Shown here: one piece after another, positions 2,108 to 61,431 of the stretch
Position numbering within the stretch: the first letter of the stretch is position 1
Layout: every line of letters starts with the position of its first letter
From: Kumtagia ephedrae
Lineage (GTDB): Bacteria; Pseudomonadota; Alphaproteobacteria; Rhizobiales; Rhizobiaceae
Reading direction: 5' to 3'
Length of the DNA stretch: 64,000 nt
NCBI RefSeq assembly: GCF_003012745.1
Contig: NZ_PXYK01000001.1
Coordinates: 1-64,000 of the forward strand
The notes under the pieces: generated by a model
Database searches by the model: none
The model's input: only the letters and a program-made list of their open reading frames with translations
Told to the model about the DNA's origin: nothing
Position numbers and translations under genes: made by a program

Positions 2108-3109
2108 CTATTTCGCCGCATTCTTGCGAGCGTTCTCCCTCCGAGTGGCATGTTCCGCGAGATCGGGTCGCCGCCGCGCGACTTCGCTTTCAATCAGGCT
2201 GGCAATGCGCCGAGATTCGTGAGGCGGCTCGTAATCATACCCTTCGAGCGTGCCGTTGAATGGTCTTGTGAGCTTGAGCGTCTCGCTCATGTCGCGATGG
2301 AACCATTCGAATTTATCGAGACGGGCGCCGGGGTTTTTGGCCAGATCGAAAACATAAGTCGGTTGCCCCGTGGCCAGCGCCTCGCACGTCATGGTGATCG
2401 AATCTTTGGTCACAAGGAATGCGTCGGCCGCCGCGAGAAAGTCGCGAAATGGGTTCGCGCCCTGGCGATCCCAGACGACAATTCTGTCGCTGCGCAAAGA
2501 GAGGAGCCGGTCGAGCAGATCGGCGCGCGAGCGGCGGGAGGTGGAGGCGAGCACGGTCCAGCCATTGGCGGCCAGTTGTTTGACCGTCTCGATCAGGCGA
2601 TCGATCGTCGCGTCGTCGTAGAGATAGGCTCGGTTCGCCCCGCCGGCGAGCACGGTAACGACCTTGTCGCCCTTGGAAGCCCAGCGCTTGCGCGCCTGCT
2701 CGCGGAGCCGGTCGACGATTTGGTGGTCGATCTGGTGGGGCACGCCGACCATCTCATGCCAGTTCGTGTGACGCGCCTTCTCATCGCTCCAGTCGTGGCG
2801 CGAGATGAACGCCATGTCGAAAACCCCGGTATATTCCGGTTGTGGCGTCGCGAGGTGGACAGTGAAAGGTTTTACCTTGCAGGCCGCGACGATGGCTTCG
2901 ACATGCGAGTTCGCAACACCGCCGCAGGAGACGACGAGCTGGGGCTCGGGCACTTTCAAACGACGATAGGGAGAAAAGATGCCCCGCCGCCATGCCGGAA
3001 GCTCGCGCTTGACCACGACCTGATACGGTTCCGGATCGATCAGGCGCGCCACACCCAGGCACTGCGTCAAGGTGCCCGCCTTGGCTTCGCTTACTGTCCA
3101 CACGCGCAT
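2108..3109 (-). CDS. ELM1/GtrOC1 family putative glycosyltransferase (DUF1022)
   Basis: The 333-residue product has the layout of the ELM1 family (formerly DUF1022), bacterial proteins related to the plant mitochondrial fission protein ELM1 and regarded as GT-B-like glycosyltransferases. It opens with MRVWTVSEAKAGTLTQCLGV, has a SCGG motif near residue 60, a VTVLAGGANRAY segment near 170 and a C-terminal TKDSITMTCEAL plus GQPTYVF block typical of the sugar-nucleotide side. Earlier starts exist at 3175 (ATG overlapping the upstream stop as TGATG) and 3199 (GTG); I chose 3109 because it matches the usual N-terminus of the family, though the 3175 overlap would favour translational coupling. Confidence 0.8.
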   Translation of the reverse strand: MRVWTVSEAKAGTLTQCLGVARLIDPEPYQVVVKRELPAWRRGIFSPYRRLKVPEPQLVVSCGGVANSHVEAIVAACKVKPFTVHLATPQPEYTGVFDMAFISRHDWSDEKARHTNWHEMVGVPHQIDHQIVDRLREQARKRWASKGDKVVTVLAGGANRAYLYDDATIDRLIETVKQLAANGWTVLASTSRRSRADLLDRLLSLRSDRIVVWDRQGANPFRDFLAAADAFLVTKDSITMTCEALATGQPTYVFDLAKNPGARLDKFEWFHRDMSETLKLTRPFNGTLEGYDYEPPHESRRIASLIESEVARRRPDLAEHATRRENARKNAAK

Positions 3110-3174
3110 CTTTGCACCACTATTTACAAGCAGCGCGTCAACAAACGCAACCTGCGATGAACCGGCGGTCAGCA

Positions 3175-27011: not shown

Positions 27012-27132
27012 GATCTTTTCCGAAGTCCCCGTTAGTCGAACGCCGTGAGTCGACGTTGGACCCTTTCGAATGTGTCATGCTAGTATGTCAATAAAAAGCC
27101 TTGGGAAAAGCCCCGGGAGGACCGTGGACGGC

Positions 27133-28977
27133 ATGAACAAAACTTCGGATGCGGGCAAGCCGGGCGCTGCCGACAGGAATGGCGCCGAGACGGCATCCGT
27201 GGAGCAGTACCTCGTCAAGGATCCGGAACGCTTCGCCCTCAACATCGCCCGCATGGTCGAGCAGGCCGGCAAGGCCGCCGCCGCCTGGGCCGAGCCGCGC
27301 GAGAAAGGCGAAGTGCGCGACACCGTCGCCGAGCCGGCCGTCGACATGGTCAAGACGTTCTCCAAGCTGACGGAATACTGGCTGTCCGATCCGCAGCGCG
27401 CCCTGGAGGCGCAGACGCGGCTGTTCGCCGGATACATGAACGTCTGGACCAGCGCCATCCATAAGGCGGGCGGCGAGCCGGCCGCCGACGCGGTGAAGCC
27501 GGACAAGGGTGACAAGCGCTTCCTGGACCCGGACTGGGGCCGCAACGCCTTTTTCGACTTCCTCAAGCAGGCCTATCTCGTCACCTCCCGCTGGGCGGGC
27601 GATCTGGTCGAGCAGGCGGAAGGCCTCGACGAGCACACCAAGCACAAGGCGTCCTTCTATGTGAAGCAGGTCTCCAACGCCCTGTCGCCGTCGAATTTCA
27701 TCCTCACCAACCCCGAACTGTTCCGCGAGACGGTGGCCAGCAGCGGCGAGAACCTGGTGCGCGGCATGAAGATGCTGGCCGAGGACATCGTGGCCGGGCG
27801 TGGCGACCTGAAACTCCGTCAGGCCGACTACACGCCGTTCGAGATCGGCCGCAACGTCGCCGTGACGCCCGGCAAGGTGATCGGCCGCAGCGACGTGGCG
27901 GAGATCCTGCAATACGAGCCGACGACCGACAAGGTGCTGAAGCGGCCGCTGCTGATCTGCCCGCCCTGGATCAACAAGTACTACATCCTCGACCTCAACC
28001 CGCAGAAATCCTTCATCGGCTGGGCTCTCGACCAGGGCCACACGGTCTTCGTCATCTCCTGGGTCAACCCCGACCAGCGGCACGGCATGAAGGGCTGGGA
28101 GGCCTATGTCCGCGAAGGGCTGCAATACGGGCTGGACTGCGTGGAGACGGCGACGGGCGAGAAGAAGGTCAATGCCATCGGCTACTGCGTCGGCGGCACG
28201 CTGCTGGCGGCGGGGCTCGCCCTGCTCGCGCAGGAGGGCGACGACCGCATCGCCTCGGCAACATTCTTCGCCACCCAGGTCGACTTCACCCATGCGGGCG
28301 ACCTGAAGGTGTTCGTCGACGAGGACCAGATCGCCGCGCTCGAGCGTGCCATGAACGAGAAGGGATTCCTCGAAGGCACGAAGATGGCGACCGCCTTCAA
28401 CATGCTGCGCTCGGGCGACCTGATCTGGCCCTATTTCGTCAACAACTACCTGCGCGGCAAGGATCCCCTGCCCTTCGACCTGCTCTACTGGAACGCCGAT
28501 TCCACCCGGATGGCCGCAGCCAACCACTCCTTCTACCTGCGCAACTGCTATCTGGAGAACAATCTCACCGCGGGGCGGATGGAGATCGCCGGCCGGCAGC
28601 TCTCGCTCGCCGACGTGACCATCCCGGTCTACAATCTTGCCACACGCGAGGACCACATCGCGCCGCCGCGCTCGGTCTTCGTCGGGTCGAAATTTTTCGG
28701 CGGGCCGGTGGAGTTCGTGATGGCCGGCTCGGGCCATATCGCCGGCGTCGTCAATCCGCCCGCGCTGAACAAGTATCAGTTCTGGACCGGCGGCCGGGCG
28801 ACGGGCAGTTTTGACGAGTGGGTTGCCGGCGCCAGCGAGAATGCGGGCTCCTGGTGGCCGCACTGGCAGAAATGGATCGAGCGGCAGGACGCGAAGAAGG
28901 TGCCGGCGCGCAAGCCCGGCGCGCATGGCAAGGTCCTCGGCGACGCGCCGGGAACCTATGTCAAGGTGCGCGTGTGA
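27133..28977 (+). CDS. phaC: Class I poly(3-hydroxyalkanoate) polymerase
   Basis: The 614-residue PHA synthase polymerises (R)-3-hydroxyacyl-CoA into storage granules. The nucleophile cysteine (about residue 352) is in the lipase-like box GYCVGG, the catalytic Asp in REDHIAPP and the His in [12 protein letters not shown]; the N-terminal PhaC_N domain precedes them. Length fits class I. The ATG at 27133 is 12 bases after GGGAGG; a GTG at 27124 is a close alternative. phaR or phaP are not adjacent, while a lipoprotein gene is divergent. Confidence 0.95.
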
Positions 28978-29176
28978 GGCAGCCGCCCGCGGCCGGCGGC
29001 CACTGCCTAAAAAGCCGGCAGAATCATGGCGCGACCATGATGCCGCCTCATTTGCTCCCTAGCTGGATTCTGGTTAAAAATCACGAATCACGCGTGCGCC
29101 TCTCGAAGGCGTGACTCATAGTTGAAATCGATACTATGCCGGCGGGCGGGACCGGCACCACGCGAGGGATTTCGGT

Positions 29177-30439
29177 TTGCGAGTACGGGGACAACGTAGC
29201 GCACGAGGGGGAAGCTTTACCGTCATCGGAGCCCTGGTCTCCGTCCTGCTCGCGTCCTGCACGTCCGCGACCGATCCAAATCTCGATGTGAACGGCTTCA
29301 ATTCGGCGGCGATGACGGCGCCCGCGCCTGCCGACGGCACCAACCGCCTGGCCAGCTCCGGCAAGGCAACGGCCGCGACCGAAGCTCAGGGCGACGCCGA
29401 GCTCCCTGCCCGGGCTGCCGCCGTTCCCGCTACCTCCACGCAGCAGCCGAAACCCGCGCAGCAGACGGCCGAGGCCGCCGCGGCGCCGGCCGAAGCCGCC
29501 GCCGCGGAGAAGCCGGCCGAGCCAGGCGCCATCCAGTCGGCAGGGGCGGAAGGCGAACAGCCGGCGCAGACGGCGGACGCTTCCGCCAGGCCGGGCGCAA
29601 ACGACAAGACTGCCGGCGAAGCCAAGGCACAGGTGGTCGCCAGCGCCGCCGAATGGCCCCAGACCGCAGCGCCGCCACCCAAGAAGAAGGGGCTCCTCTC
29701 CTTCTTCGGCTCCACGCCGGCATCCGCGGCTCCCTCGCCGATCGTCCGCCAGGATCGCGACTCGGCCGCCACCCCCGCCAGGGACCAGGCGAAGACCTTC
29801 ATCGAGAACCGCCCCGCCCGGGCCGCCGCCGAAGCGGGCGAGACGAAGCGCGAGGCGGAAAAAACCGCCAAACCCATCATCGACCTCGAAGCGGCACCGA
29901 ACCGCAAACCGGTCCAGCTGGCTTCCTTGGGCGGCGAGAACGGCAACGGCCTGCCCGGCGTGCGCACCACCGCGCTGTTCGAGATCAAGCGCAAGTCCGG
30001 CATAGACGACGACAGTGACATCGACCTGCACGAGGAAGAAGGTCCGGGCGTCATCCTGGCATCGGCAGCCGGCATGGCGCGGCTCGCGCCGAACGGCCTG
30101 CTCAAGCAGACGGAGAGCGTCGACGTCGCCTGCCTGAAGCCGTCGCTGGTGCGCGTGCTGAAGACGATCGAGCGGCGCTTCGGCAGGAAGCTGATCGTGA
30201 CGTCAGGATACCGCAGCCGCTCCTACAACATGCGGGTGCGCGGCGCCAAGAACTCCCAGCACATGTATTGCGCGGCCGCCGACATCCAGGTGCCGGGCGT
30301 CAGCAAGTGGGAGCTGGCCAAATTCGCCCGCTCCATGCAGGGCCGTGGCGGCGTCGGCACCTATTGCCACACCAATTCCGTGCATGTCGACATCGGGCCG
30401 GAGCGCGACTGGAACTGGCGCTGCCGGCGCGGTTCATAA
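29177..30439 (+). CDS. Peptidase M15-like cell-wall hydrolase with lipoprotein signal
   Basis: A TTG start at 29177, six bases after GAGGGA, begins a 420-residue protein with an N-terminal signal and lipobox-like LLASC. A long disordered Ala/Pro/Glu-rich stretch (about 40-300) leads to the C-terminal peptidase_M15_3-type domain: VTSGYRSRSYN, then the metal site in NSQHMYCAAADI and HTNSVHVDIG. This family cleaves peptide stems of peptidoglycan. An envelope-anchored reach across the periplasm is implied by the long linker. It is next to tRNA-Glu. Confidence 0.85.
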   Translation: MRVRGQRSARGGSFTVIGALVSVLLASCTSATDPNLDVNGFNSAAMTAPAPADGTNRLASSGKATAATEAQGDAELPARAAAVPATSTQQPKPAQQTAEAAAAPAEAAAAEKPAEPGAIQSAGAEGEQPAQTADASARPGANDKTAGEAKAQVVASAAEWPQTAAPPPKKKGLLSFFGSTPASAAPSPIVRQDRDSAATPARDQAKTFIENRPARAAAEAGETKREAEKTAKPIIDLEAAPNRKPVQLASLGGENGNGLPGVRTTALFEIKRKSGIDDDSDIDLHEEEGPGVILASAAGMARLAPNGLLKQTESVDVACLKPSLVRVLKTIERRFGRKLIVTSGYRSRSYNMRVRGAKNSQHMYCAAADIQVPGVSKWELAKFARSMQGRGGVGTYCHTNSVHVDIGPERDWNWRCRRGS

Positions 30440-30503
30440 GGCCGAAAAACTTTGACGACGCGGGTTGCCGACCCGTTGGAAGCCCACTATAAGCCGCGTC
30501 GCT

Positions 30504-30579
30504 GCGCCCATCGTCTAGCGGTCTAGGACGCCGCCCTTTCACGGCGGAAACACGGGTTCGATTCCCGTTGGGCGTGCCA
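30504..30579 (+). tRNA. tRNA-Glu (anticodon TTC)
   Basis: Acceptor GCGCCCA (30504-30510) pairs with TGGGCGT (30569-30575, first pair G-U), the anticodon arm CCGCC-CTTTCAC-GGCGG carries TTC, the T-loop reads GTTCGAT, and CCA is encoded at 30577-30579. The D-arm has the GTCTAGCGGTCTAGGAC form typical of tRNA-Glu. Confidence 0.96.
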
Positions 30580-30635
30580 TCGCAATCGCGATTGCCGGCA
30601 CCGTTCGGCCGATGGCCTGGAATGCCGTTGCCGCC

Positions 30636-31733
30636 TCAGATCACCACGAAATCCGCCGACGTCATGGCGTAGCCATTGTCGATGTGGGCGAACAAAACCC
30701 TGCCGCCGGCGCCCGAGCCGTTGCTGTCGTAGAACAGGTTGCCCGCCGCCTGGTCGTAGAGGATGCGGTCGTCCGCATCCACTGCGGCGATGTTGAGGTT
30801 CTTGAAGCGTTCGGGCGCGAGCGCGCCCGTCGCAGCCAGCGCGGCGAAATAGGCGTTGTCCAGTTGGATGGTATCGGCGCCGTTGAAATCCTTGATCGTG
30901 TCGACGTTGGTCGCCGCGTTCAGCGGGGAGTTGAAGACGAAATTGTCGGCGCCGTTGCCGCCATACAGCGTGTCGTTGCCCCGGTAGCCCTTGAGCGTGT
31001 CGGCGCCCGCGCCGCCGGCGATGATGTCGTTGGTCTCGTTGGCCCCGTACAGATAATCGTTGAAGTTCGAGCCGACCAGCCGCTCGATCGATTCATAAGT
31101 GTCGCCGGCGGCGTCCCCGGCATTGACCGCCGGATTGGCAAGGCTCGCGATCACGCGCTGGGCGGCGCCGGCGTAGGATGCCGTGTCCGTACCGGTACCG
31201 CCGGCGAGGAAGTCGCCGCCCGCGCCACCGGTGAGCGTATCGTTGCCGGCATCGCCGAAAAGTTCATCTTTGCCGGTCAGGCCGAACAGGCTGTCATTGC
31301 CGGAATTGCCGTTGATCTCGTCGCCCGACAGCCCGCCGGTGATGGTGTCGGCCGCGGCGCTGCCGTTGAAGGTCCAGGCCTGGCCCTCGATGAATGTCCG
31401 CAGCGTGCTGGCATTGCCGTAGACGAACAAGCCGTAGAAGTCGTTGACCGTGATCGCGAGGCCGGTCATCTCGGCCACCGCATAGCCCTCCGCGGTGACG
31501 ATGCGGAAGCCCGTCACTGTGCCGGTGTTGTAGGGATACCATTCCTCGTCGTCGTAGTAGCCGCTGAGCCCGGTCCCCAGGACCTGCAGATGGATACCCT
31601 CGATCGAGAATATCCCGTAGCCGAAGTTGAAATAGGTCGAATCGCCCGCAAAGGTATGTTGGCCCGACCGGGTGGTGATGTTGGTGAACAGCGTCTCCGG
31701 ATTGCCGGGCGCGAACTGCGTCATCGTGGGCAT
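30636..31733 (-). CDS. RTX-repeat calcium-binding protein, probable type I secretion substrate
   Basis: The 365-residue protein has no signal peptide. An N-terminal domain of about 130 residues is followed by glycine-aspartate nonapeptides (GNDSLFGLTGKDELFGDAG and GNDTLTGGAGGDFLAGGTG, then ADTLKGYRGNDTLYGGNGAD) that bind calcium as a beta-roll. The C-terminus resembles the M10_C/serralysin-type tail used by type I secretion. GGGAGA lies six bases before the ATG. No transporter genes are nearby. It is convergent with tRNA-Glu. The N-terminal domain is unrecognised, so the activity is unknown. Confidence 0.87.
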   Translation of the reverse strand: MPTMTQFAPGNPETLFTNITTRSGQHTFAGDSTYFNFGYGIFSIEGIHLQVLGTGLSGYYDDEEWYPYNTGTVTGFRIVTAEGYAVAEMTGLAITVNDFYGLFVYGNASTLRTFIEGQAWTFNGSAAADTITGGLSGDEINGNSGNDSLFGLTGKDELFGDAGNDTLTGGAGGDFLAGGTGTDTASYAGAAQRVIASLANPAVNAGDAAGDTYESIERLVGSNFNDYLYGANETNDIIAGGAGADTLKGYRGNDTLYGGNGADNFVFNSPLNAATNVDTIKDFNGADTIQLDNAYFAALAATGALAPERFKNLNIAAVDADDRILYDQAAGNLFYDSNGSGAGGRVLFAHIDNGYAMTSADFVVI

Positions 31734-32092
31734 GAAACGTCTCCCGCGGCGGGATCACTCATCCCGCTCCCTGGTTTCGCCCCAAGCTCAGCATGGACCG
31801 AAAGGCAATGGAAGGCAAGATCAACGATGGTTTTTGCAGTAGCCTCCAGATAAAGCGGACATCCTGAAGTTTATTTTCGCAAGAAATTCAGATTTTCCGT
31901 CGCATGGCGGAGCAAAATGGCCGAAGCCCCTCCGCAGATCCAAGCGCGCGGGGCCGGCGAGCTGATCGCTTCCATCAGGCCTCCCGCGGAGCCGTTGCCA
32001 CGCTTTGCCCTTGAAGCTTTGGCGTTCCGGTGTCACATGAGGCGACTGTTCAACTTTCACGCTTGCAAGAACCCGACACGTCCGACGAAGCC
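31734..32092. other. Divergent intergenic region, RTX gene / map
   Basis: 359 bases, distinctly AT-richer around 31820-31900 than the coding DNA, as expected for promoters. A short hairpin GCGGGAT-N5-ATCCCGC at 31749-31767 lies in the RTX leader. A GTG at 32030 is in frame with map but the sequence between has no family likeness. Confidence 0.4.
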
Positions 32093-32920
32093 ATGGTCAT
32101 CTATCTCGACGCCGACGCCGCGCCGGCCCGCAACACCGGCCAGATCAAGCTCTATGGCGACGACGCGTTCGCCGGCATGCGCAAGGCCTGCCAGCTGACC
32201 GCGCGCTGCCTGGACGAACTGGTCGGCATCGTCGCCCCGGGCGTGACCACCGACGAGATCGACCGCTTCGTCTTCGCGTTCGGCATGGACCACGGCGCGC
32301 TGCCGGCCACGCTGAACTATCGCGGCTATACCAAGTCCACCTGCACCTCCATCAACCATGTCGTCTGCCACGGCATCCCCGACGGCAAGCCGCTGCGCGA
32401 GGGCGACATCGTCAACATCGACGTCACCTACATCCTCGACGGATGGCATGGCGATTCCAGCCGCATGTACCCAGTCGGCACGATCAAGCGTGCGGCCGAA
32501 CGCCTGCTGGAAGTGACCCACGAATGCCTGATGCGCGGCGTGGCGGCGGTGAAGCCCGGCGCCCGCACCGGCGCGATCGGCGCGGCGATCCAGAAATTCG
32601 CCGAGGCCGAGCGCTGCTCGGTGGTGCGCGACTTCTGCGGCCACGGCGTCGGCCGGCTGTTCCACGACGCGCCCAACATCCTGCACTACGGCAATGCCAA
32701 CGAGGGCGTCGAGATGCGGCCCGGCATGATCTTCACCATCGAGCCGATGATCAATCTCGGTCGTCCGCATGTGAAGGTGCTGTCGGACGGCTGGACCGCT
32801 GTCACCCGCGACCGCTCGCTGTCGGCGCAGTACGAGCACACGGTCGGCGTGACCGCCGGCGGCTGCGAGGTCTTCACCCTGTCGCCCGCCGGCCTCGACC
32901 GCCCCGGCCTGCCCGGCTGA
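32093..32920 (+). CDS. map: Methionine aminopeptidase, type I
   Basis: The 275-residue enzyme removes the initiator methionine. All five metal ligands are seen: Asp in VNIDVTYI and DGWHGDSSRM, His in CGHGVGRLFHD, Glu in TIEPMI and Glu in QYEHTV; His of VCHGIPDG is the catalytic one. The ATG at 32093 fits the usual alphaproteobacterial beginning (YLDADAAPARNTGQIKLYG). It is followed by radC on the same strand, an arrangement common in rhizobia. Confidence 0.96.
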   Translation: MVIYLDADAAPARNTGQIKLYGDDAFAGMRKACQLTARCLDELVGIVAPGVTTDEIDRFVFAFGMDHGALPATLNYRGYTKSTCTSINHVVCHGIPDGKPLREGDIVNIDVTYILDGWHGDSSRMYPVGTIKRAAERLLEVTHECLMRGVAAVKPGARTGAIGAAIQKFAEAERCSVVRDFCGHGVGRLFHDAPNILHYGNANEGVEMRPGMIFTIEPMINLGRPHVKVLSDGWTAVTRDRSLSAQYEHTVGVTAGGCEVFTLSPAGLDRPGLPG

Positions 32921-33014
32921 GGCGCGCTTCGCCAGCAGCCTTCGCGCTCCGGCAAAGCACCGTTTCCTTCCAAAGCCATCATGGTAAGCTCACATCTCGA
33001 CCGTGGGGGCGGAC

Positions 33015-33758
33015 ATGGCGGACAAGGACGACGAACGCGGTTCCTTCGGCGAGCAGCCGCTGGCCGTTGGCTCCGCCAAGCCGCCGAAGCCGCATCATGC
33101 CGGGCACCGCGACCGGCTGCGGCAGCGTTTCCGCGAGGCCGGCGCCGGGGCGCTTGCCGATTACGAACTGCTCGAACTGCTGCTGTTCCGTTCGATACCG
33201 CGCGCCGACACCAAGGCGCGCGCGAAGGTTCTGCTGAAGAAATTCGGTTCGCTGGCGGAAGTGCTCGGCGCGCCGGAGCATCTGCTGCGCGAGGTGGAGG
33301 ATGTCGGAGAAGCCGCGGCTCTCGATCTCAAGATCGTGGCCGCCGCCGCCCAGCGCATGGCGCGCGGCGAGATCAAGGGCCGCGAGATCCTGTCGTCATG
33401 GATGCAGGTGCTCGACTACTGCCGCGCCGCAATGGCCTTCGAGGACCGCGAGCAGTTCCGCATCCTGTTCCTCGACAAGAAGAACGCCCTGATTGCCGAC
33501 GAGGTCCAGCAGACGGGAACCGTCGACCACACGCCCGTCTATCCGCGCGAGGTGGTGCGCCGCGCCCTCGAACTGTCGGCGACGGCGGTCATCCTGGTCC
33601 ACAACCATCCCTCCGGCGACCCGACGCCGTCGCGCGCCGACATCGAGATGACCAAGACCATCATCGCCTCCGCCAAGCCGCTCGGCATTTCGGTTCACGA
33701 CCACATCATCATCGGCAAGAAGGCGCATGCCAGCATGAAGGGGCTGCTGCTGATTTAG
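33015..33758 (+). CDS. radC: RadC/JAB-domain protein
   Basis: The 247-residue product has a helix-hairpin-helix region ([19 protein letters not shown]) and the JAMM metalloprotease-like motif [14 protein letters not shown] near residue 198. RadC proteins were once linked to DNA repair, but this role is not supported and the function is unknown. The ATG at 33015 has a G-rich stretch just upstream; a GTG at 33003 is possible. Notably, its TAG stop (33756-33758) shares its AG with the first unit of the downstream 8-bp repeat array, so the array forms the end of the gene. Confidence 0.93.
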
Positions 33759-33855
33759 GGCAGTAGGGCAGTAGGGCAGTAGGGCAGTAGGGCAGTAGGG
33801 CAGTAGGGCAGTAGGGCAGTAGGGCAGTAGGGCAGTAGGGCAGTAGGGCAGTAGG
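33757..33855 (+). repeat. Tandem array (AGGGCAGT)x12 plus AGG
   Basis: Twelve exact copies of an 8-bp unit run from 33757 to 33852, followed by a partial AGG. There are no mismatches. GGG runs are spaced by five bases, so the plus strand matches the G3N5 pattern of G-quadruplexes. Because 8 is not a multiple of 3, the TAG in the repeat falls in all three frames every 24 bases. The final AGG plus A gives an AGGA Shine-Dalgarno for the next gene. Confidence 0.98.
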
Positions 33856-33861
33856 AAAAGA

Positions 33862-34230
33862 ATGCCCGAGCGAATTGATTCGTACAGGGATCTCGTCGTC
33901 TGGCAGCAGGCGATGGATTTGGCCGTGGCTGTGTATGCCACCACCAGAACCTGGCCGAAGGAAGAACTCTACGGGCTGACAAGCCAAGTTCGTCGGGCCG
34001 CCGCTTCTGTTCCGGCCAACATCGCCGAAGGCTACGGCCGCGAAAATCTCGGCTCCTATCAGCAGTTCTTGAGAATTGCACAGGGCTCGCTGAAGGAAAT
34101 GGAGACCCATCTGTTGATTGCCGAACGGATAGACATAGCTCGGCGAGACACCATACGCCCTCTTATGGATAGCAGCGAAAGCGTTGGAAAATTGCTGCGG
34201 CTCCTGATTCGAAAACTCTCGAACGAATAA
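33862..34230 (+). CDS. Four-helix-bundle protein, S23/IVP-like
   Basis: A 122-residue protein of the family found as S23 proteins in 23S rRNA intervening sequences and related to the Avd accessory protein of diversity-generating retroelements. Signature segments are YRDLVVWQQAMDLAVAVY, TSQVRRAAASVPANIAEGYG and LRIAQGSLKEMETHLLIAER. These proteins are basic helical bundles that form pentamers and may bind nucleic acid. No reverse transcriptase or rRNA gene is near. The ATG lies six bases after the repeat array, which supplies its ribosome binding site, and a second array begins two bases after the stop. Confidence 0.9.
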   Translation: MPERIDSYRDLVVWQQAMDLAVAVYATTRTWPKEELYGLTSQVRRAAASVPANIAEGYGRENLGSYQQFLRIAQGSLKEMETHLLIAERIDIARRDTIRPLMDSSESVGKLLRLLIRKLSNE

Positions 34231-34231
34231 C

Positions 34232-34287
34232 CCCTACTGCCCTACTGCCCTACTGCCCTACTGCCCTACTGCCCTACTGCCCTACTG
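34232..34287 (-). repeat. Inverse tandem array, 7 copies of CCCTACTG
   Basis: Seven exact copies of CCCTACTG, which is the reverse complement of CAGTAGGG, the same unit as the array at 33757 in the other orientation. It begins two bases after the stop of the S23-like gene and ends one base before the stop of the convergent reductase gene. For a ribosome coming from that side the array again presents TAG in every frame. Confidence 0.98.
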
Positions 34288-34288
34288 C

Positions 34289-35341
34289 TCACGGACACGG
34301 ATTGCCAAACCGCTGGTGCAGCCCGTCGACCGCCTCCTGCATCTCCCTCGTCCACTGGACCTCCGCGGCGGCCAGCGCCGTCTCGAGCTGCGGCATGCTA
34401 GTGGCGCCGATGATGCTCGAGGTCACGACAGGCTGGCTGAGCACGAAGGCGGCGGCGAACAGCGCCGGCTCCAGGCCGAACGACTGCGCCAGATCGCAAT
34501 AGGCGAGGATCGCCTCGGCGGCGTGCGGCGTCTCGTAGCGCTGGCCGCGGTTGAACAGCGTCGTGCGCGCGCCGGCCGGCCGCGCCCCGTGATTGTATTT
34601 TCCGGTGAGATAGCCCTGCGCGAGCGGCGAATAGGCGAGCAGGCTGACATCCTCGCGGTCGGCGACCTCGGCGAGATTCACCTCGAAGGTGCGGTTGAGC
34701 AGATTGTAGGCGTTCTGGATGGAGGCGACACGCGGCCCCCGCCCCTGCTCCGCCTCGAACAGAAAGCGCATGACGCCCCAGGAGCTCTCGTTCGAAACGC
34801 CGAGATGGCGGATCTTTCCCGCCTTCACCAGCTCGTCGAAGACGGACAGCGTCTCGGCGATCGGCGTCTCGTCCTCGTCGCGGCCGGCCGGCCATTTGCC
34901 GACGCGCGTCGGGTTCGAACCCCACGGCACCTGCCGCTCGGGGAAATGGATCTGGTAGAGGTCGACATGGTCGGTCTCAAGGCGGGCCAGCGACTTGTCG
35001 ATGGCATCGAGAATGTCCGCCCGCACCAGCCGCGACGGGCGATCGCCGCGGAACCAGTCCATGGCCGTGCGGCCGACCACCTTGGTCGCGAGAATCACGT
35101 CGCCGCGGTTGCGGCGCGCCTTCATCCACGAGCCGACGATGCGCTCGGTGCTGCCCTGCGTCTCCGCCCTGGGCGGGATCGAATAGAGTTCGGCCGTGTC
35201 GAGGAAGTTCACGCCATGCTCGAAGGCCATATCCATCTGGGCGTGGCCTTCGGCCTCGGTATTCTGCTGGCCCCAGGTCATGGTGCCCAGGCAGATTCTC
35301 GAAACGAGCAGGTCGGTACGGCCGAGGCGGCGCTTCTCCAT
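34289..35341 (-). CDS. Aldo/keto reductase, Tas-like
   Basis: The 350-residue product is a TIM-barrel NADPH-dependent oxidoreductase of the Tas/AKR11-like group. It starts MEKRRLGRTDLLVSRICLGTMTWG; the catalytic Tyr is in FLDTAELYSIPP, the Lys in ILATKVVG and the His in DLYQIHFPER. The substrate cannot be told from sequence. Its stop codon abuts the repeat array of the S23 cassette. The ATG at 35341 agrees with the family; a longer open frame upstream overlaps the neighbouring region without likeness. Confidence 0.93.
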   Translation of the reverse strand: MEKRRLGRTDLLVSRICLGTMTWGQQNTEAEGHAQMDMAFEHGVNFLDTAELYSIPPRAETQGSTERIVGSWMKARRNRGDVILATKVVGRTAMDWFRGDRPSRLVRADILDAIDKSLARLETDHVDLYQIHFPERQVPWGSNPTRVGKWPAGRDEDETPIAETLSVFDELVKAGKIRHLGVSNESSWGVMRFLFEAEQGRGPRVASIQNAYNLLNRTFEVNLAEVADREDVSLLAYSPLAQGYLTGKYNHGARPAGARTTLFNRGQRYETPHAAEAILAYCDLAQSFGLEPALFAAAFVLSQPVVTSSIIGATSMPQLETALAAAEVQWTREMQEAVDGLHQRFGNPCP

Positions 35342-35522
35342 GGCGAATTCTCCGAAATGCTTGGGATGTGGGAGCGGAACGAATGTCCGGCCGCAACCTA
35401 TCGCGAAAAGACGGGCAGCCCAAGTCCTTGAGCCTGGAAGTTCCGAGCGACCATTTCGAAATGGCTTGGCGCAGCCCTCTCTACTCTGCACGAAGTTCGC
35501 GATCGCCAGCGGATTTCGACAG

Positions 35523-36542
35523 CTACGGCTTCCATGCCGTCCTGGACGACCACACCGGAAACAGGTCGCCCTCTGCCGGCGTGGCGGCGAAGACGCCGCG
35601 CGCGATGGCGCGTGCCATGGTCGCGCCGGCCGCGGCATAGAGGTCGATCGCCTCGTCGGCGGCCAACACCTTGCCGCTGCGGCCGGTCGCCAACGCGAAG
35701 ACGAGGTCGCCGTCGGCCGGCGTATGGGCTGGCCAGATGGCGCGGGCAAAACCGTCATGCGCGGCGATCGCCAGCCGCTTGGCCTCCGCCTTGGTGAGCA
35801 CGGCGTCCGTGGCGATCACCGCGATGGTGGTGTTCGCCAGTTCCGCCTTGTCGCGGAATTTCAGCCGGACCTTGGTCGCATCGGCGGGCATCGGCGAGGG
35901 ATGGCCGAGGCCGCCGAACTCGTCGCCGATCTCGAAGGGTGCCGCCCAGAAATGGCGGCTGCGCCCGATCGTCACCGAACCGGTGGGATTGACCGCCGCC
36001 AGCGCGCCGATGGTGATGCCGTTGGCCAGCACGGTCGAGGCGGAGCCCAGCCCGCCCTTGAGCCCGGCGCTGAGCGCGCCGGTGCCGGCGCCTGCCGTCC
36101 CGATCGCGAAGTCGGTGCCGGCGTCCGCGACGGCCTGGTAGCCGAGCTCGCGATAGGGCGGAAAACGGCCCCATTGCTTATCGCCGCCGTTGCGCAGGTC
36201 GAACAGGATGGCAGCCGGCACGATCGGCACGCGAAACCCGCCAACTTCGAAGCCGATGCCCTGTTCGCGCAGCGCCGCCTGCACGCCGGAGGCGGCGTCG
36301 AGCCCGAAAGCCGAACCGCCCGCCAGCACCAGCGCGTTGACGGCCTGGACGGAATTGTGCGGTTCCAGAAGATCGGTCTCGCGTGTCCCCGGCGCCCCGC
36401 CGAGTATCTGCACGCCGGCCACCGCCGGCTCCTCGCAGACGACGACGGTGACGCCCGATTTCAGGCCGGCGTCGGCGGCATTGCCGATCTTCAACCCGGC
36501 AACGTCGGTGATCAAGTTGCGCGGTCCGGCGCGGTCCATCAC
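35523..36542 (-). CDS. P1 family peptidase (S58, DmpA-like)
   Basis: A 339-residue N-terminal-nucleophile peptidase like DmpA aminopeptidase. The family pattern is clear: NLITDVAGLKIGNA at the start, ALVLAGGSAFGLDAASGV, a glycine-rich GTAGAGTGALSAGLKGGLG segment, and the autocleavage and nucleophile site near ELANTTIAVIATDA, where Thr takes the place of Ser in DmpA. It overlaps the start of the substrate-binding protein gene by four bases at its own start side (36539-36542), so the two are coupled. Confidence 0.92.
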   Translation of the reverse strand: MMDRAGPRNLITDVAGLKIGNAADAGLKSGVTVVVCEEPAVAGVQILGGAPGTRETDLLEPHNSVQAVNALVLAGGSAFGLDAASGVQAALREQGIGFEVGGFRVPIVPAAILFDLRNGGDKQWGRFPPYRELGYQAVADAGTDFAIGTAGAGTGALSAGLKGGLGSASTVLANGITIGALAAVNPTGSVTIGRSRHFWAAPFEIGDEFGGLGHPSPMPADATKVRLKFRDKAELANTTIAVIATDAVLTKAEAKRLAIAAHDGFARAIWPAHTPADGDLVFALATGRSGKVLAADEAIDLYAAAGATMARAIARGVFAATPAEGDLFPVWSSRTAWKP

Positions 36543-37591
36543 GGCTCCTCCAGCGGCACGAAGCGCGTTCCGTCATAGCGGAACAGGCGATAGGGATTTG
36601 CGGAGAGGTCGCCCTTGCCGTCGAACATAATCCTCCCGAGCGCGGTGTCGTAGGGGCCGGCCAGCGTCGGCGTTCCCGACGGCTCGGCCTGAACGGCGGC
36701 GACCGCCACCTGCATAGCCGCGTAGGCAGGCAGCACGTAGCCGTCCGGCACGACATGGCGCTCGGCTAGGGCTACAAGGGAGGCCTGGTCGGCGATGTCC
36801 GACCATTCCGGCAGGCCGATCATCAGCGTGCCGGCGGCGAGCGCGACCCCGTTGGAAGCCGAGCGCAGCGTCTCGCCGCCGGCGAAGGTGAGCGGCGCGC
36901 CGAGCGCGGCCGCGTCGCGCGTCATGGCGGCGACGTCGTCGCGGTCGCCGCCGACCATGACGTTGACGGCGCCTGCCCGGCGCAGCCGCCCGACCAGGCC
37001 GATCTGATTGTCCATCTGCGGCCTGTACGTGTCGACGAAGACTGCCTTCAGCGCCCGCCGCTCGGCCGCGCCGCGAAAGGTCTCGGCGAGGTCCCGGCCA
37101 TAAATGGTTCCGTCGTCGACGATGGCGAACAGGCTGTCGCGCCAAAGCGGCACCAGCAGCGAGGCGAAGGCCTGGCCTTCGGCGTCGGCGCGGGGTGCCA
37201 GGCGATAGACCAGCCAGCCGGTCTTGTCGCGCCGGTCGGTCAGGCTGTCGGTGCGCACGCCTGGCGTGATCGTCGGGATGCCGGCGTCCTTCAGGATCGG
37301 CAGCGCCGCCTCGATCGCCTCGGTGCAGAGGAAACCGACGACGATCTTCACCTCCGCCTCGGCGAAACGACGCGCCGCCGCCGCCCCGCCCTCGCCCGTG
37401 CAGGCATCGTCCGCCACATCGAGCATGGCGTCGCCCGCGGCAGCGCGAGCGCCGTTCACGAGTTGGCGGCCAAGCAGTTCGGAAGGGCCGCTCAGCGGCG
37501 CGGCGACGCCGATGCGGACTGCCTCGGCACGCGCCGCCTCTCCGGCCAGGACCAGAGCCAGCAACGCCATCGCCGTCTTGGCAAGCAGCAT
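36539..37591 (-). CDS. Branched-chain amino acid type ABC substrate-binding protein
   Basis: The 350-residue product has a Sec signal peptide (MLLAKTAMALLALVLAGEAARA) and the LivJ-like type I binding fold: RIGVAAPLSGPSELLGRQLVNGARAA at the mature start and YGRDLAETFRG in the hinge region. It is probably periplasmic and may bind small amino acids or amides. No permease or ATPase genes are adjacent, so it is an orphan here. Its stop overlaps the start of the P1 peptidase gene (ATGA), which suggests a link between peptide or amide hydrolysis and binding of a product. Confidence 0.85.
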   Translation of the reverse strand: MLLAKTAMALLALVLAGEAARAEAVRIGVAAPLSGPSELLGRQLVNGARAAAGDAMLDVADDACTGEGGAAAARRFAEAEVKIVVGFLCTEAIEAALPILKDAGIPTITPGVRTDSLTDRRDKTGWLVYRLAPRADAEGQAFASLLVPLWRDSLFAIVDDGTIYGRDLAETFRGAAERRALKAVFVDTYRPQMDNQIGLVGRLRRAGAVNVMVGGDRDDVAAMTRDAAALGAPLTFAGGETLRSASNGVALAAGTLMIGLPEWSDIADQASLVALAERHVVPDGYVLPAYAAMQVAVAAVQAEPSGTPTLAGPYDTALGRIMFDGKGDLSANPYRLFRYDGTRFVPLEEP

Positions 37592-37772
37592 GAGGCCGAC
37601 TGTCCTTTCGAAGCCCGATTCCGCGCGCCTGGACCGCGCGCCGGAGCAAACTGGTAACGGCGGCATGCGGCCGGCGCAACCGGCGATTTCGCGCGTACCG
37701 GTTCGGCGATTTCCTTGTGGCCCGCCGTCTATGCCCATATATAGCGGTCGGTCCTCCAGTCGGGAAAAATCG

Positions 37773-38267
37773 GTGCTGAAGAAAAGCGACGTCGAACCGC
37801 AGGCCTATCGCGACGCCATGGCGCGCTTCGCCGGCGCCGTGCATGTGGTGACCACCGACGGCGAGGCCGGCCTGCGCGGCGCCACCGTGATCGCCGCCTG
37901 CTCGGTGACCGACGCGCCGCCGACGATCCTGGTCTGCCTCAACCGCGAGAATCTGAAGAACGAAGCGTTTCTCACCAACCGACGCTTCGCGCTCAACACC
38001 CTGACCCCCGAGCAGCAGCCGATCGCCATCGGCTTCTCCGGCGTCACCGGCCTGCCGGTCGAGGAGCGTTTCGCGCTCGGACGCTGGGATAAGATCGCCT
38101 CCGGCGCGCCGACGCTGGTCGGCGCCATGGCGGTGTTCGACTGCGAGCTGTTCGACTGGAAGGATCTGGCCACCCATCGTGTGCTTTTTGGCAAGGTGAC
38201 GGGCCTGCGGATCGGCGATAGCGTGGATCCGCTGCTCTATTACAACCGCGCCTATCGGGTCCTGTGA
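37773..38267 (+). CDS. Flavin reductase family protein
   Basis: The 164-residue product has the FMN-binding split-barrel of flavin reductases: YRDAMARFAGAVHVVTTDGEAG, then GATVIAACSVTDAPPTILVCLN and FALNTLTPEQ. Such enzymes supply reduced flavin to monooxygenases. A GTG at 37773 is taken as start because the preceding frame has no likeness. It is 17 bases upstream of the moxR gene on the same strand, so it may lead that operon, but a functional tie to the molybdenum genes is not evident. Confidence 0.88.
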   Translation: MLKKSDVEPQAYRDAMARFAGAVHVVTTDGEAGLRGATVIAACSVTDAPPTILVCLNRENLKNEAFLTNRRFALNTLTPEQQPIAIGFSGVTGLPVEERFALGRWDKIASGAPTLVGAMAVFDCELFDWKDLATHRVLFGKVTGLRIGDSVDPLLYYNRAYRVL

Positions 38268-38284
38268 CCCCCGGCGGAGGCCCG

Positions 38285-39214
<930 letters not shown>

Positions 39215-39215
39215 G

Positions 39216-40583
39216 ATGGACAGCTCCGATCGCAGTTCACGCCCGCCTCTTACCCCTCCCCTCAAGGGGGAAGCGGATTCTAAGGCGCCGACGCTCCCCT
39301 CCCCCTTGAGGGATGGGGGTGAAGCAACCACTCCCCTCGTCATCGGCGGTGCAGATGCGACGACTGCGCATTCCGAAGGCCGGCTCGCCGACAACATCGT
39401 CTATTTCGCCCGCGCACTGCGCAAGGCCGGCATGCGGGTGGGGCCGGCGTCGGTGAAGGACGCCATCGAGGCGGTGCTGGCCGCCGGCATCGGCAGCCGC
39501 GACGACTTCTACTGGACGCTGCACGCCGTGCTGGTAACCCGCCACGAGGACCATCCGGTGTTCGACGAGGCGTTCCGGCTGTTCTGGCGGTCGCGCGAGC
39601 TGATCGAAAAGATGCTCGCCATGTTCTCGCCGGTGGCGCCCGACATGCGCGAGCGGCAAAAGCCGCGGGCGGCCGAAAACCGCGTCAGCCAGGCGATGTT
39701 CGAGGGTCACCGGAAGAACGAGCCACCGAAGGAGATCCCCGAAATCGAGGTCGACGCGCGTTTCACCGTGTCCGGCAACGAGGTGCTGCGCGGCAAGGAT
39801 TTCGCCCAGATGACGGCGGCCGAGCTTTCCGAGGCGCGGCACGAGATCGCCGCGCTCAGGCTGCCCTTCGACCTGGTCGCCACGCGCCGCTTCCGCCCCG
39901 ACCCGCGCGGCAAGAAGGTCGATCCGCGCGCCATGATGCGCGCCTCCGCCCGTACCGGCGGCGCGCTCATCCTGCCGAAATTCCGCTCGGCCCGCGAGGT
40001 GCATCCGCCGCTGGTGGTGCTTGCCGACATCTCCGGCTCGATGAGCCAGTACACGCGCATCTTCCTGCATTTCCTGCATGCGCTGACGGAGAAGCGCAGG
40101 CGTGTTCATGCCTTCGTCTTCGGCACCAGGCTCACCAATCTCACCCGCCAGATGCGCCACCGCGATCCCGACGCAGCGCTCGCCGACTGCTCGGCGGCGG
40201 TGCAGGACTGGTCGGGCGGCACCCGCATCGGCGAGACGCTGCACGAGTTCAACCGGCTGTGGTCGCGCCGCGTGCTCGGCCAGGGCGCGGTGGTGCTGCT
40301 CATCACCGACGGACTGGAGCGCGACGACGTGGTCGGGCTGCAGGCGGAGACGGAGCGGCTGAGAAAATCCTGTCGCCGGCTGATCTGGCTGAACCCGCTG
40401 CTGCGCTTCGACGGTTTCGAGGCGCGCGCCCGCGGGGTGAGGGCCATGCTGCCGCATGTCGACGAGTTCCGGCCGGTGCACAATCTCAACGCACTGGCCG
40501 ATCTGTGCGCCTCGCTCGACCAGGGTGCCCCCGCCGGCGGCGATCCGCGCCGCTATCTCTTGCCCGCAGACCGGGCCGCCTGA
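39216..40583 (+). CDS. VWA domain protein, CoxE-like
   Basis: The 455-residue product is a CoxE-type protein: after the N-terminal 55 residues it has RLADNIVYFARALRKAGMRVG, and the von Willebrand A fold carries an intact MIDAS start in LADISGSMSQYTR near residue 270 and a Ser/Thr-rich LITDGLERDD later. It is thought to work with the MoxR ATPase before it. The first 37 codons contain a palindromic repeat inserted in frame (39248-39323), giving the segment RPPLTPPLKGEADSKAPT that is foreign to the family. The ATG at 39216 is the only sensible start. Confidence 0.9.
   Translation: MDSSDRSSRPPLTPPLKGEADSKAPTLPSPLRDGGEATTPLVIGGADATTAHSEGRLADNIVYFARALRKAGMRVGPASVKDAIEAVLAAGIGSRDDFYWTLHAVLVTRHEDHPVFDEAFRLFWRSRELIEKMLAMFSPVAPDMRERQKPRAAENRVSQAMFEGHRKNEPPKEIPEIEVDARFTVSGNEVLRGKDFAQMTAAELSEARHEIAALRLPFDLVATRRFRPDPRGKKVDPRAMMRASARTGGALILPKFRSAREVHPPLVVLADISGSMSQYTRIFLHFLHALTEKRRRVHAFVFGTRLTNLTRQMRHRDPDAALADCSAAVQDWSGGTRIGETLHEFNRLWSRRVLGQGAVVLLITDGLERDDVVGLQAETERLRKSCRRLIWLNPLLRFDGFEARARGVRAMLPHVDEFRPVHNLNALADLCASLDQGAPAGGDPRRYLLPADRAA
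39248..39323. repeat. Palindromic repeat inside the coxE-like gene
   Basis: An imperfect inverted repeat built of CCCCTCAAGGGGGA-type and TCCCCCTTGAGGGA-type arms. It has the composition of intergenic palindromes found in rhizobia but lies within the open frame, adding codons near the N-terminus without a stop. Family alignment would show whether the segment is absent in relatives. Confidence 0.7.
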
Positions 40584-61177: not shown

Positions 61178-61431
61178 CATCGGCTTTGGCGTCTTCGAGT
61201 CCGAGGCCTGGATTCCCGACACTCTCCGCTCGCTTCGCTCGCTCACGAGGTCGGGAATGACGACAATCATGATCTGGTTCGCCAATCACAGACGATCTGC
61301 TTTGCCAATCACAGACGTTGGTGATTGGCGCAGTATCGGTCGATGTCGTCATTCCCGACCTCGTGAGCGAGCGAAGCGAGCGGAGAGTGTCGGGAATCCG
61401 GGCCTCGGACTCGAAGACGCCAAAGCCGATG
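61178..61431. repeat. Large inverted repeat with 87-bp arms
   Basis: The arm 61178-61264 is repeated inversely at 61345-61431 with one mismatch. The spacer of 80 bases itself holds two copies of GCCAATCACAGACG and a small palindrome GCCAATCAC/GTGATTGGC. The arms include GTCATTCCCGACCTCGTGAG and GAGCGAAGCGAGCGGAGAG, a composition seen in dispersed rhizobial repeats. It is in the 501-base intergenic stretch between the hypothetical gene at 60162-60986 and the DUF1127 pair, which holds no other gene that I can support. Confidence 0.9.

Follow-up and report, generated by a model that had tools for sequence, protein, structure and literature searches.

The S23-type gene between radC and a convergent reductase gene in Kumtagia ephedrae, together with the inverted tandem arrays that enclose it, is probably the gene-carrying copy of a mobile family that resembles the RAYT/REPIN system, with a protein of the Avd fold replacing the known transposase. 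Either end of such an element is a tandem array of a 7- or 8-bp unit, the two arrays being in inverse orientation, and its sole gene encodes the S23/Avd-fold protein. The pieces of this system were already known and the link between them is new; no known element that pairs such ends with such a protein was found described. Among the matches listed from open-licence PMC papers, none was found that reports the S23-array link, the gene-less copies or the exact insertions. The feature coordinates are collected in Table 1, in which the window is the whole 64,000-nucleotide stretch that was analysed.

Table 1. Features of the window cassette, its host genes and the nested S23 regions of two other loci.
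Feature	Position	Strand	Remarks
Whole S23 element	33756..34288	+	533 bp, between radC stop and convergent reductase stop
Left arm, TAGGGCAG x12.5	33756-33855	+	Tandem, 100% matches; G-rich strand inward
S23-type four-helix-bundle gene, 122 aa	33862-34230	+	PF05635, TIGR02436, NF008911
Right arm, inverse units, CCCTACTG x7.1 on + strand	34232-34288	-	100% matches
radC, upstream host gene	33003-33758	+	Context, outside element; profile match
Aldo/keto reductase ORF, convergent	34289..35758	-	Context, outside element; family match
Nested S23 regions	L149:2157-6359; L153:723-3914

The initial annotation described an array, a gene and an inverse array set between two stop codons, and this is borne out by the coordinates and by repeat matches of 100%. 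The TAG stop codon of radC (33756-33758) forms the first bases of the left array, and the reductase ORF ends at 34289, one base past the right array. The family match of the reductase begins near residue 140 of the listed ORF, whose true start is probably further downstream. The last AGG of the left arm, just 5' of the S23 ATG, is a possible ribosome-binding site, and the window copy is probably transcribed together with radC. The S23 gene is the only family-matching ORF within the element (PF05635, E=3e-35; NF008911, E=2.8e-55); PF05635 is its sole Pfam match, with no Y1 transposase family, and no known transposase type is present. The copy lies outside rRNA, in a locus (L001) without an rRNA match in an Rfam scan, and its unit is the octamer AGGGCAGT, not a (GGGANTN)n heptamer. 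A stem of up to 56 bp had also been envisaged; the seven inverse units could engage no more than seven of the 12 direct ones, in several alternative registers, and a single fixed 56-bp stem is therefore rejected.

The AF2 model of the window S23 protein (mean pLDDT 93.1) is a four-helix bundle, which Foldseek matches to 2gsc (TMq 0.86, E 1.9e-7), the solved structure of XCC0516 from Xanthomonas campestris, and to the DGR protein Avd (8ub7, TMq 0.79, E 0.01; 4dwl, TMq 0.78, E 0.029). The proposed relation to Avd is therefore supported at the level of the fold only, with a sequence identity of about 10% and modest E-values (0.01-0.03). Unlike in diversity-generating retroelements, no reverse transcriptase was detected near the window copy in a Pfam scan of radC, the reductase and eight further window proteins (27070-40583). 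We know of no catalytic motif or activity for S23, and its invariant residues form no motif that we recognise. XCC0516 has been described as a homopentamer (PMC4990558).

The initial view of the cassette needs amending in one respect: far from being a single case, its architecture is the usual one in the PF05635 family, in which units differ between clades and gene-less copies also occur. The survey drew on the 80 best of 505 loci from named genomes, on eight loci from the same genus and on further loci from the host family, Pseudomonadota, Xanthomonadaceae and plasmids (L294-L301). These gave 184 S23 ORFs, 160 after duplicate removal and 155 with enough flank, and the 477 control intervals came from the same loci. 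The inverted-pair score was at least 18 at 101 of the 155 genes and at none of the 477 controls. Both arms were tandem (score at least 10) at 102/155 genes and at one control interval. With an inverted score of at least 13, 120 of the 155 genes are included; at least one array accompanies 143, and nine have neither. Of periods 5-12, only 7 or 8 occurs among the S23 arrays scoring at least 10 (125/125 left, 120/120 right), and control arrays have periods of 6, 7, 8, 9, 10 and 12. The left arm is G-rich inward in 123/125 cases, the exceptions being L135 and L248, and the arms lie within 200-260 nt of the S23 gene.

The proportion scoring at least 13 varies by source, with 71/74 in the best-80 set, 12/13 in the host family, 7/8 in the same genus, 17/24 in Pseudomonadota, 5/7 on plasmids and 8/29 in Xanthomonadaceae. 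In the last group the arrays are degenerate or further downstream, and GGGAATC/GGGATTC-type units lie beside most of the S23 genes (28 scored, two at contig edges). The closest intact XCC0516 relative found (L266, 89% identical) has GGGAATC-type arms, and the neighbours of its S23 gene are what we take to be accB and accC. Units of the whole set include AGGGCAGT, AGGGGAGT, AGGCAGT, CGGCAGT, CGGGAGT, AGGGTGT, GGCGAAT, GGTGAAT and GAGTGAG, together with CAGAATT- and GGGAACA-types seen by eye on plasmids. The hosts include members of Pseudomonadota, Cyanobacteriota, Chloroflexota and Latescibacterota, with weaker arrays in Gemmatimonadota (L296) and Bacteroidota (L298), and six of the 80 named-genome loci have extra arrays. 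One S23 copy (L036, G003:C11) has an internal stop and long regular arrays on both sides, and looks recently decayed.

The array unit is not confined to the cassette. The pattern AGGGCAGTAGGGCAGT occurs 73+61 times in the 6.11-Mb window genome, and the array excess is not due to chance, given that the reversed control pattern gave 0 matches. Among the places listed, gene-less inverted pairs of the AGGGCAGTAGGGCAGT type are found on contigs C4, C9, C20, C32, C34 (two) and C60, with one arm short in C4, the other arm short in C9, and interiors of 91-100 bp in the remaining five. Single clear arrays are present at C7, at one C54 site and at the contig ends of C30 and C54. Unit numbers vary freely among copies, and a subterminal motif near GGGAACGCGA or its complement is, by eye, common to several interiors. 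The two C34 pairs (L046, about 1054-1297 and 2935-3150) are 1.9 kb apart and have interiors that match in 87/97 aligned columns, and interiors have therefore been copied or exchanged between arrays. When 12 gene-less interiors were folded against shuffles, none was clearly better folded (z -1.3 to 1.4), and the idea of structured interiors is not supported.

A second S23 gene in the window genome (C4:243978-244328), 50% identical, has GGTGAAT arms. A search of the whole genome with GGTGAATGGTGAAT, one mismatch being allowed, gave 15+22 matches (control 0), and all 37 fall inside nine inverted pairs; one of these encloses the second S23 gene, and the other eight lack a gene and have interiors of 7-76 bp. 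The strongest single argument for gene-unit pairing is that one cell thus combines two S23 genes with two units and with two sets of dispersed gene-less copies. The repeat that flanks the S23 gene is also dispersed as inverted doublets, as in systems of the RAYT/REPIN type.

The pairing is also seen across the surveyed elements. In a comparison of 109 elements with both arms scoring at least 9, with only periods 7 and 8 allowed, the two arms of each element had the same period. Arm similarity was 0.90 for the own pair and 0.55 between elements, and the own right arm was best or tied for 39 of 56 representatives. Unit similarity tracks protein identity (Mantel r 0.377, against a maximum of 0.173 in 2000 permutations). 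Three tandem AGGGSAGT units were detected in 39/297 host-family genomes (reversed control, 0), 93 of which 297 have an S23 gene. For the close subfamily (E<1e-44, a class picked after the table had been seen), 28 genomes have both gene and array, 11 the array only, 3 the gene only and 255 neither; for any S23 gene the figures are 33, 6, 60 and 198, the 60 being counted against AGGGSAGT as the one unit type sought. Among 198 Xanthomonadaceae genomes, GGGAWTC x3 is present in 75 (reversed control, 3 genomes) and an S23 gene in 85, with 61 genomes having both, 14 the array only, 24 the gene only (GGGAWTC again being the one unit type sought) and 99 neither. The corresponding P values of 4e-27 (297 genomes) and 5e-18 (198 genomes) ignore phylogeny and are descriptive only.

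In the mechanism proposed here, S23 would recognise its cognate unit in trans, bring two inverted arrays together and promote movement of the DNA between them, and an enzyme would cut and join. Gene-less inverted pairs would be non-autonomous copies riding in trans, as REPINs do with RAYTs. It is also conceivable, if rather unlikely, that an unrelated host or IS transposase moves or copies the arrays, or that they expand by replication slippage, S23 being a passenger or a protein that binds and tolerates hairpins. Such an account would fit the fact that no catalysis is known for S23 and the free variation in unit number, which suits slippage. It would also fit the arrays without a detected S23 gene in 6/297 and 14/198 genomes, which count against the mobile reading. 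However, it does not predict two S23 genes in one genome, each with its own matching array set, nor the covariation of unit and protein. Arms within 200-260 nt of the gene leave no room for a transposase gene, and the ends at the two insertion sites resolved below share no terminal repeat beyond the units.

Evidence for insertion comes from plasmids. At site B, plasmid C of Trichormus variabilis ATCC 29413 carries a 423-bp element with the target-site duplication (TSD) GTAAT, and the site is empty in plasmids of Nostoc linckia NIES-25, Tolypothrix PCC 7601 and Nostoc carneum NIES-2107; the 150-nt flanks are identical to those of the N. linckia plasmid at 150/150 and 148/150 positions. At site F, plasmid pNsp_a of Nostoc ATCC 53789 has a 413-bp insertion, with TTCTA repeated, relative to the empty pNsp_c (flanks 138/150 and 141/150, one base gap on the right). 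The element is likewise present or absent at sites A, C, D and E, where the divergence or complexity of the flanks prevents a TSD from being read. A 5-bp TSD is thus readable at two of six plasmid sites, both occupied by members other than the window copy, and the ends at these two sites have no common terminal repeat beyond the units. These sites establish insertion as a unit; the role of S23 in that insertion, and the chemistry, we infer. The view of the cassette as an IVS-like, selfish-looking S23 element outside rRNA is supported, with exact empty sites at other members. Two Calothrix plasmids bear an S23 gene between identically annotated neighbours, and this part is taken to be a region common to both.

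Two further observations were made on plasmids. In Picosynechococcus PCC 7003, an S23 element lies between cas10 and cmr3 in a type III-B CRISPR operon (L312, 1489-1845) and is absent from pAQ6 of PCC 7002. A gene-less element was recognised by eye on pNsp_c of Nostoc ATCC 53789 (L304:1519-1780), at a site occupied by an S23 element in Nostoc C052 and N. edaphicum.

Chromosomal sites vary in a similar manner. At site a of C34, which differs among three species, the window genome has a gene-less pair, genome G003 has an S23 element with AGGGGAGT arms, and G001 is empty; G002 has no array, but its left flank is on another contig and it was not counted as empty. At site b, gene-less pairs with differing interiors and units are present in the window genome and G003, and nothing is present in G001 or G002. 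The cyanobacterial loci L149 (Nodosilinea) and L153 (Phormidium) have 86%-identical S23 elements within one and the same large gene but at different positions, and neither genome has the element where the other carries it, although L153 has another inserted sequence at the first of these positions; the further arrays of L153 are spread gene-less copies. The arrangement is neither fixed at radC in all relatives nor confined to that locus. A radC match was obtained in 56/61 genomes (55 besides the window genome), and 30 loci were fetched, 29 of them non-window. The comparison of the radC 3' junction suggested in the initial annotation gave no array (score at least 12) within 400 nt after radC in all 29, but no matched pre-insertion sequence, because the reductase adjoins radC in 0/29.

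Insertion would leave a 5-bp duplication, as at the two plasmid sites, and position statistics suggest that it would occur mostly at stop codons. In 117/134 cases the left end is no more than 15 nt away from the stop codon of an inward-reading ORF of at least 100 codons, compared with 33/588 control positions, a statistic that is inflated by shared sites and by TAG-containing units that themselves supply the stop. The same is true of the right end in 50/127 cases. Both readable TSDs overlap the stop codon of the upstream gene. Stops are present in all three frames of the tested strand in arrays of AGGGCAGT, AGGGGAGT, AGGCAGT, GGTGAAT and AGGGTGT, and in none of these frames in arrays of CGGCAGT, CGGGAGT, GGGAATC and GGCGAAT. 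Clustering of upstream flanks places 65/88 loci in three clusters (36, 19 and 10). Given these clusters and the variable sites, the gene appears largely vertical with occasional moves and gene-less turnover; many S23 genes would stay at one site and be inherited, while units and gene-less copies turn over. S23 genes are probably transcribed from the upstream gene, and the long hairpin may be trimmed in RNA as in 23S IVSs.

The position directly after stop codons, and the similar flanks of S23 genes across genera, could alternatively point to a fixed RNA-processing or regulatory device. On this view the inverted arrays would form a hairpin or G-quadruplex in the 3'-UTR, by which the upstream transcript would be protected or terminated, S23 would bind this structure, and the spread would reflect ancestral inheritance only. 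G4 formation in vitro and transcription of most repeats (Rehm et al. 2015, PMC4692102) would agree with such a device. As a full account it is disfavoured and must be considered improbable, given the exact empty sites with 5-bp duplications, the species-specific presence at C34 sites a and b, the nesting inside coding regions described below and the 12 gene-less interiors, none of which folds clearly better than shuffles. Moreover, GAGTGAG, GGCGAAT and CAGAATT units have no G-triplet; the G-quadruplex is rejected as a common factor, several units being without G-triplets. It is possible that a regulatory role was gained after insertion.

Returning to the mobile family, some members are found inside other genes. 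In five loci from two phyla, namely L149, L153, L134 (Pleurocapsa), L146 (Herpetosiphon) and L152 (Caldilineaceae), an open host frame of 998-1401 codons encloses the S23 gene and stays open through both arms and through the +2 frame of that gene (in four loci the host frame is cut by the locus edge). The best PADLOC model of the host is a Type IIG restriction-methylase in L149 and L153 and DrmMI in L134, L146 and L152. The +2 frame is open in 23/156 S23 genes, where shuffling with protein and codon use preserved predicts 3.1; the other frames give 0 (expected 0.3) for +1, 0 (1.6) for antisense -1 and 6 (2.3) for -2. Among 53 representatives (<70% identity), nine are open in +2, against a mean of 1.6 and a maximum of 6 in 1000 shuffles. 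We interpret this pattern as selection for elements that permit read-through.

Several known systems share features with these elements. The 23S rRNA intervening sequence with an S23p ORF likewise has a PF05635 protein and inverted ends and has been called selfish (PMC4990558), but the window copy and 36/37 scanned loci are outside rRNA, and tandem arrays or gene-less copies of the present kind are not mentioned in the available part of that text. The same source, on the Coxiella IVS, attributes the ideas of a transposition remnant and of a mobile element to others and cites mobility as a so far untested proposal, and a 2024 paper notes that rRNA insertions in CPR bacteria can carry 23S_rRNA_IVP ORFs. 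In Rfam scans of 37 chosen loci, one true 23S IVS was detected (L297, Azospirillum lipoferum plasmid AZO_p2), and a reading of all elements as IVSs was rejected on this count. By eye, its ends (GAGGACG GATGACA GAGGACG GAGGACA and the inverse) form a degenerate heptamer array; the suggestion that arrays replace the usual IVS stem was thus not confirmed, the stem here being itself such an array. That the cassette is a classical 23S rRNA IVS escaped to an intergenic site would explain the common protein family, the inverted ends and the array ends of this one IVS, but is highly improbable, given that with 1/37 loci in rRNA the rRNA copies look exceptional.

The S23 arms of Xanthomonadaceae have the same heptamer units as the GGGAATC and GGGGA(C/T)T repeats described in Xanthomonas and Nostoc (PMC4692102). 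In Xcc, these repeats include 70 inverted close pairs and lie near ORF ends, and their role was left open. Two findings of that study weigh against the mobile reading: 90% of the Xcc repeats have the same neighbouring ORFs in Xac, and the repeats were not generally linked to mobile elements (Rehm et al. 2015, PMC4692102). They form G4 in vitro and most are transcribed, and neither 'S23' nor 'four helix' occurs in the available text of that paper. The RAYT/REPIN system (PMC3116915) is similar in having a distinctive, largely vertical gene with its own short repeats, dispersed inverted doublets and covariation of repeat and gene. It differs in that its gene is a tyrosine transposase rather than an S23/Avd-fold gene, and in having a single palindromic REP rather than tandem 7-8 bp arrays. 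The present elements also have interiors of 7-100 bp where measured and, unlike RAYT/REPIN, a 5-bp TSD (two sites) and copies in rRNA and in-frame in proteins. Rickettsia palindromic elements likewise insert in-frame into coding genes (review PMC10969869), but are about 150 bp in length, whereas the nested copies described above bring in a complete gene, which is read in a different frame.

Taken jointly, these observations raise the tentative possibility that S23 represents a new mobility class (not DDE, Y1, serine or tyrosine) whose substrates are hairpins, or arrays of a word of 7-8 bp. Heptamer repeats, 23S IVSs and nested insertions might then be products of one superfamily, from which Avd was recruited and one branch of which keeps a second frame open for sitting inside coding genes. 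The proposed mobile system as such would provide a candidate cause for rRNA intervening sequences that carry an ORF of no assigned function and for the heptamer repeats of cyanobacteria and xanthomonads, whose role the published work leaves open. It would also offer a testable protein partner for each repeat family, a candidate context for the solved S23 structures 2gsc and 2rld, published without function, and a possible source of the DGR protein Avd. The process would be transposition-like, with an only encoded protein that has no known catalytic fold, and in the nested copies a gene lives inside the reading frame of another, in restriction-methylase genes.

Elsewhere in the window, a tRNA-Glu gene (30504-30579) is followed on the opposite strand by an RTX calcium-binding-repeat protein (PF00353; region 30504-31733), and a 23-bp direct repeat is present in two copies with 91% matches at 61271-61317.
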